In this document: positions 21,070 through 29,454 of the stretch, piece after piece | Layout: every line of letters begins with the position of its first letter | Position numbering within the stretch: position 1 is the stretch's first letter | Virus record (IMG/VR): IMGVR_UViG_3300042691_004000 | Location: 1 to 29,454 of that record | Strand: one strand, 5' to 3' | Length of the DNA: 29,454 nt | From: a virus | Made by a program: the position numbers and the translations under genes | Notes under the pieces: generated by a model | Database searches by the model: none | What the model was told of the DNA's origin: nothing | What the model saw: only the letters and a program-made list of their open reading frames with translations

Positions 21070-23769
21070 TTAACGAAAAACAGAAACGCAAACTGTATCA
21101 ACATCAGCTAAACCAGCAGTTTGTGTAATAAATGAATTTATCCTGCACGATCCAGTTGCAAATCTTGCTCCAGCTCCAGGGTTATTGAAACAATAACTTC
21201 CATAAGAGTTACCGCTACCTGAACTTCCAACAATGGAATAATTAACATCCGGCATAGCATTGGTAAAGTTAACCGTATAGTCACCTGTGCCGTTATCCGT
21301 AATACTCGACACATTGCCACTAGCACGAATAGCGACTGTACCTGTGCCATTAAAGTTGACCCATGCACGACAGCCGTATGCTGTGGCTACTGAGCCATAT
21401 CCGGAATTAAATCCAAATGTGCTTCCAGTTGCGTTTCCTGTAACTGTTGCAGCACTTCCTGTTGTATTCTGGTTAAGTGTAGGAACATCACCAGCCTGAA
21501 TTGCTGACATAACTACGTTAGTGCCATTGCCACGCAAATACTGACCTGAAGTTACAGCGCCAGCAAATGAGTTCATTGATGCTTGTGCGGTTGTTTGGCC
21601 GGTTCCACCATTGGCTATAGGTAATGCGGTACCAGAATACGAGATAGCCAATGTTCCGCTTGTTGTTATTGGTGATCCGGTAACAGATAAAAATGCTGGA
21701 ACAGTAGCGGCAACGCTGGTAACAGTGCCCGTAGAAGAGACTGTTGCCCAACTAGTCGTGGTTCCGTTTGTAGTTAAGTATTTGCCAGAATTACCTGTTT
21801 GACTTGGGGCTAGGGCGTCAAAGGCAGCATTAGCTGTTGTTTGTCCAGTACCACCATTTGCAATAGCTACTGTTCCTGTAACATTACTTGCAGTACCTGT
21901 AGTATTTTGATTTAACGTTGGTATATCTGCAGCAGCAATGGCTCTAAAAGTAGGTACGCCCGCAGTGCCGTTGGGTGCGGCTAAAAAGTAATTTGCAGTT
22001 TTACTAGCATATGGATTTTGCGTATCACCATAGCCAGACGCCAAACTTATAGCTGGCGTATTGCCACCTGATGAAGCCACAGGCGATGTTCCAGTAACGC
22101 TGGTTACCGTACCAGTGTACTGATCGTTCGACGTGATGGTGAAATTAGGGTATGTGCCACTGATGCTGGTTGTTCCAGCACCTGTTAATGCCACTGTTTG
22201 ATCTGGCGCACTGTTGGTAATCGTCACATTGCCTGTGGCGCCCGACACAGAGATGCCAGTACCAGCAATAGCGCTCAGCACACCTGAGTTGGCAATCGTG
22301 ATCGTCCCAGCACCCTCAGTGATACTGATGCCGGTGCCGTCAGTTAAGGTGTTCTTCTCCCACAAGCTGGTGCTTGCGTTATAGATCAGCGTCTGGCCGT
22401 TGCTGGGCGACTGAGCCGAGACGTTATGCAACTCTTCCAGTTCATAGCCGTTCTGGATGCGCACGTACAGGCGACCATTACCCATGTTGGCACGTTCAAC
22501 CACACCAACATAGACCAAATGGTTGGGTGCGTAGGGCTTACTAGACGTCAACGTACCGGCTGTGGCGCCCACATAGAGCGTGTCACCAGGGTTGTAAGCA
22601 CTCAGATCCAGCCCGTCCTGCACGCCTTGGCACAAGACCATGCCGGCCTGACCTGCAGCAATATTTTCAGCGCAAACACCTAGAGTTTTGGCTGATGTCG
22701 TGTCGCTAGTGTTGCTCGCCAGCTTGACCGACACCCGATCGCCCTGCGCCGCGTACATATAGACCGGTTGACCCTTGGTAATCGTCACCGACTCGTCGTT
22801 AGTCACGTACGCATAGAGCGTCTGACCCACGTCCGCTGCAATATTGGCGTTTAAGCCAACAGTTAGCGTCTGTTGCGTAGCATCCCAGTACAGACGGCCT
22901 GCTGCGTTGGTAACCGTGGCACCTGTGTCGAACTGGATGAAGTCAGGTGAGGAAATACCACCTGTGATGCCTGTCATCGACGTGATATTGTCGTTCGCGC
23001 CGGCAGTAGCCCAGCTCTGATCGATCTTTTGCCAGACATTACCGTTGAAAATGAGCCAATCGCCCGGCTGCCAATCAGTAATCCCGTTTAGGTTGGTCGT
23101 GCCGGCCACCGAGACGATGTAGTAGTCGCCCGAAGTGCCTGTGCTAGACGCCAATGTGGGCGTGTTGGTTGACGCGTTCCACGTACCCTTGTAATCCAAG
23201 GCAATCAGCGCATCAATCTGCGCCTGCAGTGACGCCAGAGCGTCCAACACCGCCTGCGAGGTGCCACCACCGTTGGTGATAACCTTGATCCGCTCGGCCA
23301 AGTCGGGTGCAACGACCTCACCAACGTTGATTTCACGCCCGTTTGAGAGCGAAATCACCAAAGATCCGTCGAAGTCGATCTTAGCGTCAGTTACCGACAC
23401 CCCATCTTCGCCAGGCACGCCGGCTGGGCCTTGCATCCCATCCCGACCGTCCTTGCCGTCCCGCCCTGGACGTCCATCTTTGCCATCCTTGCCGTCACGA
23501 CCGTCAGATCCATCGACGCCATCGCGTCCATCTTGGATCGAGTTCACTCGATCGGTGATTTTCTGGCCTAAATCGTCGTATTTCGCCCGAATGTCGGCTT
23601 CAATCTTCTTCAAAGCATCGACTACCATGCCGACGTTCTCACTGACCCGTCGTTTCTGGTTACCTCTAGCCTCTTGAAGCGTCGCGCGAACTGAATCCAG
23701 AACAGCAGTCTGCTGCTCTGGCGTCATGTTCTGCAGAATGAGCTGCTTAGCTAGGCTTTCAACGTCCAC
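21070..23769 (-). CDS. Long tail fibre with collagen-like stalk
   Basis: 899 aa, GTG 23769 with GGAG upstream, overlapping the portal gene by 11 bases. Order of parts: an N-terminal helical coiled coil (about 1-78), a collagen-like stretch of 15 unbroken Gly-x-y triplets (residues 81-125), globular beta segments with DWQPGDWLIFNGNVWQKI, a TLGVCAENIAAGQAG segment, then Gly/Thr/Ser-rich beta-repeats including two copies of IANGGTGQTTA, and a C-terminal knob (AYGCRAWVNFNGTGTVAIRA) seen on many phage fibres. Probably trimeric and the main host-range determinant. Its place between portal and scaffold is unusual. Confidence 0.9.
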   Translation of the reverse strand: MDVESLAKQLILQNMTPEQQTAVLDSVRATLQEARGNQKRRVSENVGMVVDALKKIEADIRAKYDDLGQKITDRVNSIQDGRDGVDGSDGRDGKDGKDGRPGRDGKDGRDGMQGPAGVPGEDGVSVTDAKIDFDGSLVISLSNGREINVGEVVAPDLAERIKVITNGGGTSQAVLDALASLQAQIDALIALDYKGTWNASTNTPTLASSTGTSGDYYIVSVAGTTNLNGITDWQPGDWLIFNGNVWQKIDQSWATAGANDNITSMTGITGGISSPDFIQFDTGATVTNAAGRLYWDATQQTLTVGLNANIAADVGQTLYAYVTNDESVTITKGQPVYMYAAQGDRVSVKLASNTSDTTSAKTLGVCAENIAAGQAGMVLCQGVQDGLDLSAYNPGDTLYVGATAGTLTSSKPYAPNHLVYVGVVERANMGNGRLYVRIQNGYELEELHNVSAQSPSNGQTLIYNASTSLWEKNTLTDGTGISITEGAGTITIANSGVLSAIAGTGISVSGATGNVTITNSAPDQTVALTGAGTTSISGTYPNFTITSNDQYTGTVTSVTGTSPVASSGGNTPAISLASGYGDTQNPYASKTANYFLAAPNGTAGVPTFRAIAAADIPTLNQNTTGTASNVTGTVAIANGGTGQTTANAAFDALAPSQTGNSGKYLTTNGTTTSWATVSSTGTVTSVAATVPAFLSVTGSPITTSGTLAISYSGTALPIANGGTGQTTAQASMNSFAGAVTSGQYLRGNGTNVVMSAIQAGDVPTLNQNTTGSAATVTGNATGSTFGFNSGYGSVATAYGCRAWVNFNGTGTVAIRASGNVSSITDNGTGDYTVNFTNAMPDVNYSIVGSSGSGNSYGSYCFNNPGAGARFATGSCRINSFITQTAGLADVDTVCVSVFR
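21586..21864 (-). repeat. Two repeated 11-codon modules in the fibre gene
   Basis: IANGGTGQTTA is encoded at 21832-21864 and again at 21586-21618, 246 bases apart. Upstream and downstream the segment with NQNTTG is also present twice. Amino-acid identity is high while codons differ, which suggests an old duplication kept by selection on protein rather than a recent DNA copy. Confidence 0.75.
23395..23529 (-). repeat. Collagen-like Gly-x-y coding repeat
   Basis: Fifteen consecutive triplets beginning GRDGVDGSDGRDG, dominated by DG(R/K) units. Such repeats make triple-helical stalks in phage fibres and are prone to change in length. Confidence 0.85.
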
Positions 23770-28214: not shown

Positions 28215-28424
28215 TTAACTATTACCATTTGGCTCACTATCAGATATAACAAAATCGTTAGCATTGCCCGATTGACAATGCATTTGCTGATACCAGTCGA
28301 GTAGATTTTTAAAGCCAGCGCTGATATCGCCGTCGCCGGCATGAGCCAATATCGCGGCTTCGGTATCCGTTAAATGGCGCAGGAAATTGCGCGTGCGAAT
28401 TGATGCGGGTCTACCTGCTGGCAT
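28215..28424 (-). CDS. Small putative ribbon-helix-helix DNA-binding regulator
   Basis: 69 aa. Starts MPAGRPASIRTRNFLRHLTD. The pattern suggests a basic N-terminal arm, a short strand (about 13-19, NFLRHLT), helix 1 (about 20-30, DTEAAILAHAG), a turn (DGDIS) and helix 2 (about 35-47, SAGFKNLLDWYQQ), then a polar tail. This matches the layout of Arc/MetJ/CopG-type repressors by eye; I cannot confirm it without a profile search. The gene lies next to a cluster of dyad repeats, three of which are directly upstream of its start, as expected of an autoregulated repressor. The ribosome site is weak (GAG about 12 bases away). Alternative: a small phage protein of another kind. Confidence 0.5.
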   Translation of the reverse strand: MPAGRPASIRTRNFLRHLTDTEAAILAHAGDGDISAGFKNLLDWYQQMHCQSGNANDFVISDSEPNGNS

Positions 28425-28440
28425 AAGTTATCACTCTGAC

Positions 28441-28701
28441 ATGGTCAAATGGTCAAATGGTCATGCAATTTTAATCGCTGCTACCCCCAACGCAAAATCA
28501 AAATTTTTGCACTCCGGCACGGGATTCTGGCGTGCACGGCACGGGATTCCCTATATTACTTACTACTACTTACTAACATCTAAAAATAAATGACCATTTG
28601 ACCATTATTGGCCAAAAGCTAGTATCCATGCGGGTTTTGCCATGGTCATTTGCCCGTGCCAAATGACCATTTCATGACCATTTAGGACCCTAAATGACCA
28701 T
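28441..28701. repeat. Iteron/operator cluster: nine copies of ATGGTCA/TGACCAT
   Basis: ATGGTCA on the plus strand starts at 28441, 28449, 28457 and 28642; its reverse complement TGACCAT starts at 28591, 28599, 28664, 28675 and 28695. Copies within the first two groups are exactly 8 bases apart. The wider consensus AAATG-GT-CATTT is an inverted repeat (arms AAATG/CATTT), complete at 28588-28599 and 28661-28672. By chance one would expect far less than one copy of a given heptamer here. Confidence 0.9.
28515..28549 (+). repeat. 13-bp direct repeat CGGCACGGGATTC
   Basis: Exact copies at 28515-28527 and 28537-28549, start to start 22 bases, about two helix turns. They lie between the first two iteron groups. 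Confidence 0.8.
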
Positions 28702-28737
28702 TAAAACCGCGAATCGCAAATAAACGCAAAAGATTGT

Positions 28738-28765
28738 TTGACAACCTCAAAAAACGTGCTACCAT
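28738..28765 (+). promoter_or_regulatory. Extended -10 promoter for the rightward early genes
   Basis: Perfect TTGACA (28738-28743), 16-base spacer, and TACCAT (28760-28765) preceded by TGC, an extended -10. Transcription would begin near 28772, about 40 bases before ATG 28814. The last iteron ends 37 bases upstream of the -35 box. Confidence 0.6.
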
Positions 28766-28813: not shown

Positions 28814-28987
28814 ATGACGGCTCATATCTTCAAAGCAAAAGGCGGCGTTTGGACCCTGATTATCAGCAAGTCGCCGATCGGCCAAATAAACGGCGATAAC
28901 GTGATAGCGCAAGCCACTTATCAGAATAAAACCGCCGCGAAACAAGCCGCAAAAGCGATCGGCGCAAAACCTTGGAATTACCTGTAA
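28814..28987 (+). CDS. 57-aa basic protein, first gene of the rightward unit
   Basis: Starts MTAHIFKAKGGVWTLIISKS, ends QAAKAIGAKPWNYL. ATG 28814 has AAGGA seven bases upstream and follows the predicted promoter. A beta-rich first half and a short Ala/Lys helix can be seen; pI is high. No family recognised. Early position suggests a host-takeover or regulatory role, but this is only context. Confidence 0.65.
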   Translation: MTAHIFKAKGGVWTLIISKSPIGQINGDNVIAQATYQNKTAAKQAAKAIGAKPWNYL

Positions 28988-29141: not shown

Positions 29142-29454
29142 ATGAAAAATCCATTCAAAGCACAATTAAAACGCGAAAACCTGCCCTATCGGCCAATATT
29201 GGGCGAATCCAGCGCCAAAACGATCAAAGGCCAGAAAATCGGCTACTTGACGGCAATCTGCTATCTGGTACCGGATGAAAAGCTCTGCCCGTTTGCGATA
29301 ATGGCCGGCTGTTTTGAGCCGTGCCTGAAATCATCCGGCCGTGGCGCGTTTAATGCCGTGCAAGCGGCCAGAGCGGCCAAAACCGCGTTTTTCCGCGAGA
29401 ATCAGCGCGCGTTTATGCTCTCAATGGCCGCCGATATATGGTCGCACGCTCGCC
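29142..29454 (+). CDS. GP88-family phage protein (cut by window end)
   Basis: At least 104 residues, open at the right edge. AAGGGA lies upstream of ATG 29142. SAKTIKGQKIGYLTAICYLV, LCPFAIMAGCFEPCLKSSGRG and NAVQAARAAKTAFFREN match the gene product 88 family (PF17338) of phages, whose N-terminal half carries these conserved cysteines (here CPFAIMAGCFEPC). The family has no firmly proven function known to me. The frame is in the early rightward unit. Confidence 0.75.
   Translation, partial: MKNPFKAQLKRENLPYRPILGESSAKTIKGQKIGYLTAICYLVPDEKLCPFAIMAGCFEPCLKSSGRGAFNAVQAARAAKTAFFRENQRAFMLSMAADIWSHAR

Follow-up and report, generated by a model that had tools for sequence, protein, structure and literature searches.

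A likely iteron replication origin in an environmental phage, with repeat specificity that covaries with the predicted wing of the phage primase-helicase

The window analyzed here, a whole stretch of 29,454 nucleotides, is a 29.5-kb virus fragment from IMG/VR (record IMGVR_UViG_3300042691_004000) that encodes a terminase, an SU10/P22-type portal, a major capsid protein, an exonuclease, and a helicase; its right end falls inside an early gene. An array of short repeats lies between a leftward gene for a 69-aa protein and a rightward 57-aa open reading frame (ORF) (Table 1). Searches for tRNAs and Rfam families returned no matches. Elsewhere in the window, an 899-aa tail-fibre-like protein (21070-23769, minus strand) carries a collagen-like GxY stretch (GRDGKDGKDGRPGRDGKDGRDG) and is strongly divergent among close relatives. 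In the relative designated L002, the tail and capsid region occurs twice in divergent versions (L144-L146; e.g., proteins of 907 aa and 716 aa) on a 47.8-kb contig about 10 kb longer than its sister genomes, which is probably a chimeric or concatenated assembly.

Table 1. Features in and around the repeat array, in window coordinates
Feature	Position	Strand	Remarks
69-aa ORF, ATG start	28215..28424	-	Conserved neighbor of the array in one clade
Iteron triple, ATGGTCA x3, period 8 (28441, 28449, 28457)	28441..28463	+	Beside the start of the 69-aa gene; same place in relatives with other repeats
Block (A)GCGATT(T)AAAA, noncoding, conserved	28468..28479	-	Between the triple and the AT-rich tract
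AT-rich tract with TAG-like trinucleotides	28550..28589		Adjoins the middle iteron pair; relatives also AT-rich here
Middle iteron pair, period 8 (28591, 28599)	28591..28605	-	Exact copies; present in aligned relatives
Single iteron, opposite orientation (28642)	28642..28648	+	Exact copy
Distal iteron group (28664, 28675, 28695)	28664..28701	-	Exact copies; present in relatives
Promoter-like TTGACA-16-TACCAT, extended -10 TG	28738..28765	+	Consensus match only; rightward
57-aa ORF	28814..28987	+	First rightward early ORF; without family match
GP88-like early gene, start only	29142..29453	+	Cut by the window end; primase-helicase gene beyond it in relatives

A recount confirmed the nine exact copies of ATGGTCA, in both orientations and beside the 69-aa ORF, that the original prediction had placed within 261 bp (28441-28701). 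The 8-base spacing it described is true within the triple and within the middle pair. Across the whole window the heptamer occurs 14 times, compared with 3.2 ± 1.7 times in dinucleotide shuffles, none of which reached 14. AT content is about 75% in 28561-28600 versus 48% overall, and the AT-rich tract is a candidate DNA unwinding element. We found no GC-skew switch at the array and no DnaA box of the form TTWTNCACA anywhere in the window. For the rightward promoter proposed earlier, the motif is present and its flank is kept in relatives, but promoter matches in this region are no commoner than in shuffled sequence. The repeats had also been described as a dyad (AAATGACCATTT); this symmetry is probably incidental, because relatives with TGAGGGCAAT and TGTAGGCAAT repeats retain the layout but not the palindrome.

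A scan of IMG/VR with the 69-aa protein yielded 24 loci. Within its clade the arrays share one layout, consisting of a triple beside the gene, a pair adjoining the AT-rich tract, and a distal group, but the repeat takes at least six forms: ATGGTCA, TGTAGGCAA, TGAGGGCAA, TGTTAGTCAT, TGTCGGCAA, and TGTAGGCGA. When 12 arrays of six repeat types were aligned, the promoter-like flank, the AT-rich tract, and the AGCGATTTAAAA block formed a fixed frame inside which the iterons varied, with (A)GCGATT(T)AAAA near-invariant throughout. For example, L002 encodes a 69-aa protein that is 99% identical, yet its array is built of TGTAGGCAA/TGTAGGTCA. The circular phage genome MW202483.1, whose primase is 52% identical, has an array of another repeat (GTTTACA, 11 copies); the arrangement is therefore widespread.

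Arrays were detected as repeats present in both orientations with tandem spacing. By this criterion AAGTTAGTG, a second repeat in one clade, was not counted as an iteron. In the K-wing clade (wing residues are described below) and its neighbors, a second repeat family, (T)AAGTTAGTGg.CA, was detected in 13-14 copies close to the array region, at about 3.4-3.6 kb past the primase stop in L216, 3.0-3.2 kb in L240, and 3.1-3.3 kb in L255. In MW202483.1 (L295; 7083-7379 and 10226-10576), a small protein annotated as "dnaa protein helix-turn-helix" is encoded between the primase and the array, and the wing region of that primase reads CFAPELSTKR. The iteron common to the L215, L217, L220, and L228 arrays, TGTGGACAA, is one base off the complement of the DnaA box TTATCCACA (TGTGGATAA); this likeness may be chance or may reflect a link to host DnaA.

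Contigs of 19 relatives were read whole, and those reaching far enough encode a primase-helicase or part of one. This protein of ~767 aa has an N-terminal RepB_primase-like region and a central DUF5906/SF3-type helicase, with Pfam matches to DUF5906 (E = 8.9e-10, above the cutoff) and RepB_primase (E = 8.6e-5, just below the cutoff) and a match to the PHROG DNA primase (E = 3.8e-20). It had no Pfam match to Pox_D5 or D5_N, and a profile of its C-terminal domain found no relevant match in the PDB, the P4 alpha structure included. The segment after "...GWVDMGR" varies with repeat type, and the remainder of the protein is largely conserved. Further scans with the primase added about 110 loci, most carrying a downstream array; GTDB genomes contributed three distant relatives only, all in MAG contigs. 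IMG/VR contains more than 500 relatives. In nearly all loci with a detected array, it lies 2-3.5 kb downstream of the primase stop codon. The gene of the phage studied here is likewise predicted just outside the fragment, 2-3.5 kb from the array. The terminal 38-mer of the fragment was found in three relatives only, at least two of which have a primase with the segment IHSAEHQTRK, and we predict that this phage carries IHS(A/S)EHQTRK.

To compare protein and repeat, we scanned all 10-residue windows of the primase blindly at 42 loci with clean arrays (clean detection succeeded at some loci only), relating iteron distance to window distance with correction for whole-protein distance. The top window was IHSAEHQTRK (residues 726-735; partial r = 0.55). 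When the iterons were permuted 1000 times within clades, no window exceeded 0.46, and 0/1000 permutations reached the observed value. Closely related primases give the same picture: L174 and L175 are 98.0% identical, and 7 of their 15 differences fall inside the 10-residue segment (p = 2.5e-11), the L174 array consisting of ATGGTCA and the L175 array of TGAGGGCAA. Differences are likewise concentrated in the segment in L178/L180, L182/L184, L189/L190, L203/L195, and L199/L197. A second primase stretch, AAQIVQDMAA (windows starting at 317-320, L174 numbering), located before the helicase domain, also correlates with iteron type (partial r = 0.47).

AlphaFold2, given the C-terminal 170 residues of the primase with 59 relatives, predicted a winged-helix topology: helices at 92-101 and 110-119, a strand at 123-128, a loop, and a strand at 137-141, with mean pLDDT of 87-94 per block of ten over residues 111-160. 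In this model the two strands are joined by the covarying segment, which forms the wing. Foldseek searches with the domain gave weak matches (none below E = 0.001), mostly to winged-helix DNA binders, including RFX5; RFX proteins read bases with the wing.

Wing and iteron changed together across the collection. Among primase pairs less than 7% divergent elsewhere, those with the same iteron (n = 26) had a mean of 0.38 wing differences and at most 2, whereas those with different iterons (n = 20) had at least 5. Between L203 and L193, wing and iterons are both switched although the terminases are 100% and the portals 99.7% identical. A tree built without the wing requires at least 15 iteron label changes, with the same wing-iteron pairs reused convergently. 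ATGGTCA arrays pair with the wing IHS(A/S/H)E(H/F)Q, and H2 and Q7 switched jointly in 4/4 independent comparisons, too few for significance alone (sign test, p = 0.125). Methionine at wing position 2 goes with TAGTCA, lysine at position 2 with GGACA, and threonine at position 3, preceded by A, G, or S, with GGGCAA, each without exception among 46 cases, the rules being derived from the same data used to state them. Loci added later fit an N-T rule, INTRELTTKR occurring with ATGCACGTCAT as VNTREHTSKK had earlier. For new loci, the nearest wing predicted the iteron exactly in 6/9 readable cases and missed by one or two bases in the other 3/9.

The wing-iteron code is not strictly one-to-one. 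The wing LASREYQTKK occurs with TGTTGGCTATG in L285 and L287, with a TGTAGGTCATG-like repeat in L289, and with a TGTGGGTCATG-like repeat in L291; similarly, IHSREFATKK occurs with TGTGGGCAAT in L299 and TGTGGGTCAT in L298. In L002, CA and TC at iteron positions 7-8 are mixed within one array. Since wings are shared between differing repeats, either the wing is the main determinant but others contribute, or some wings accept both CA and TC at positions 7-8.

Taking the arrays together with the primase comparison, we consider it likely that the array is an iteron replication origin bound by the winged-helix C-terminal domain of the phage's own primase-helicase, and that the wing specificity of this domain switches fast. 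The conserved layout and the coupled change of wing and repeat support the original prediction in calling the repeats iterons and in suggesting a possible role in phage replication. Binding, melting, and origin firing we infer by analogy with SaPI Rep, Cch2, and P4 alpha. The C-terminal winged-helix domain would recognize the iterons and deliver the helicase ring to the array, with most of the base specificity residing in its wing, a beta-hairpin loop of 10 residues that for ATGGTCA arrays would be IHS(A/S)EHQTRK. Melting would then occur in the AT-rich tract adjoining the middle pair, and synthesis would be started by the fused primase together with the phage polymerase. The array may also influence the promoters on either side. 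Among related phages, wing and iterons have been exchanged jointly many times while the remaining primase and the origin scaffold stayed near constant.

The array could also be an operator through which the primase C-terminal domain controls two divergent units, with replication starting elsewhere. Iterons lie on both sides, near the start of the leftward gene and near the rightward promoter-like site, and an operator of this kind would produce identical covariation. However, the AT-rich tract by the middle pair and the fusion to a helicase favor an origin, and known relatives of this kind have such arrays as origins. We regard a purely regulatory array as unlikely, although operator and origin roles may coexist. 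Alternatively, the iterons may be read by another, variable protein from the early genes that separate array and primase, with the wing changing only through linkage to it. The genes in this interval are indeed variable, and DNA homology is broken there in switched pairs, but their content differs between contigs whereas the primase is always present. Moreover, change is concentrated in one predicted DNA-binding loop of a primase that is otherwise 94-98% identical, and the same wing residues recur across independent switches; a linked reader is very unlikely.

The original prediction had proposed the 69-aa protein as the reader of the repeats, a ribbon-helix-helix repressor that could bind the heptamers and regulate the units on both sides. 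In this protein's clade, 10-30 bp separate its gene from the iteron triple, and the predicted model has a helix-helix layout, but we find this proposal highly improbable given near-identical proteins beside different repeats (99% in L002, 93% in L006), array loci with the same kind of primase at which profile search found no homologue, and the absence of any ribbon-helix-helix match for the protein in Pfam, PHROGs, NCBIfam, or the PDB. Protein and repeats do not covary across relatives: the gene is kept while the repeats change, an outcome that the original prediction itself had named as counting against it. The monomer model is of low confidence (pLDDT 57), with helices only at 20-29 and 34-50, and Foldseek found no fold match for it; a ribbon-helix-helix fold is possible in that it is compatible with the helix-helix layout of this model. 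As judged from the relatives' sequences, the 69-aa protein is not the determinant of repeat specificity, and it may be an accessory regulator.

Several known systems resemble the proposed origin in part. MetJ and omega, both ribbon-helix-helix repressors, bind 7-8-bp tandem sites in both orientations, but the small neighbor protein here does not track the repeats. Lambdoid phages have O protein-ori iteron pairs whose specificity differs among related phages; O, however, is neither helicase nor primase, and the O gene itself contains its iterons. P4 alpha unites primase, SF3-type helicase, and a C-terminal winged-helix origin-binding domain in one protein and reads ori/crr iterons. The phages described here also fuse primase to an SF3/D5-like helicase, as in the P4 alpha / SaPI Rep type, and have a C-terminal winged helix (here by AlphaFold2 prediction), but they differ from P4 alpha in lacking D5_N, Pox_D5, and PDB profile matches, in their repeats, and in switching specificity between near-identical phages. 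Because no sequence homology to the P4/Pox_D5 group was detected, we describe the protein as working like P4 alpha and SaPI Rep and not as a member of that group. Geminivirus Rep, an HUH rolling-circle Rep, is unrelated to the winged helix on an SF3-type helicase considered here. Even so, PMC2974675 and PMC12548392 describe an iteron-related domain in it, a short segment varying with the iteron among close relatives, and in this both systems are alike. For SaPI Rep and SCCmec Cch2, the iteron origin lies downstream of the helicase gene and is bound by the C-terminal domain (PMC7581432; for the helicase kinship of P4 alpha, see PMC9611036). The array is downstream of the initiator gene in these phages too, but at 2-3.5 kb, past an early-gene block, in a phage that encodes a DNA polymerase of its own, and here comparison among relatives narrows the determinant down to a single loop.

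An iteron origin bound by the C-terminal domain of an initiator helicase is already known in kind; the novelty lies in the group of phages, in tracing specificity down to the wing loop, and in how often near-identical phages have switched convergently. We tentatively suggest that the wing constitutes an evolvable code in which a few residues set the origin, and that its switches (at least 15, convergent) may deny co-infecting relatives or satellites access to a phage's replication. The collection includes over a dozen natural specificities on initiators up to 98% identical. With these natural matched pairs, how the wing reads bases and why phages change origin identity can therefore be tested without designed mutants. 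Should the pairs prove private, environmental phages would fall into replication compatibility groups, much as plasmids do according to their iterons.
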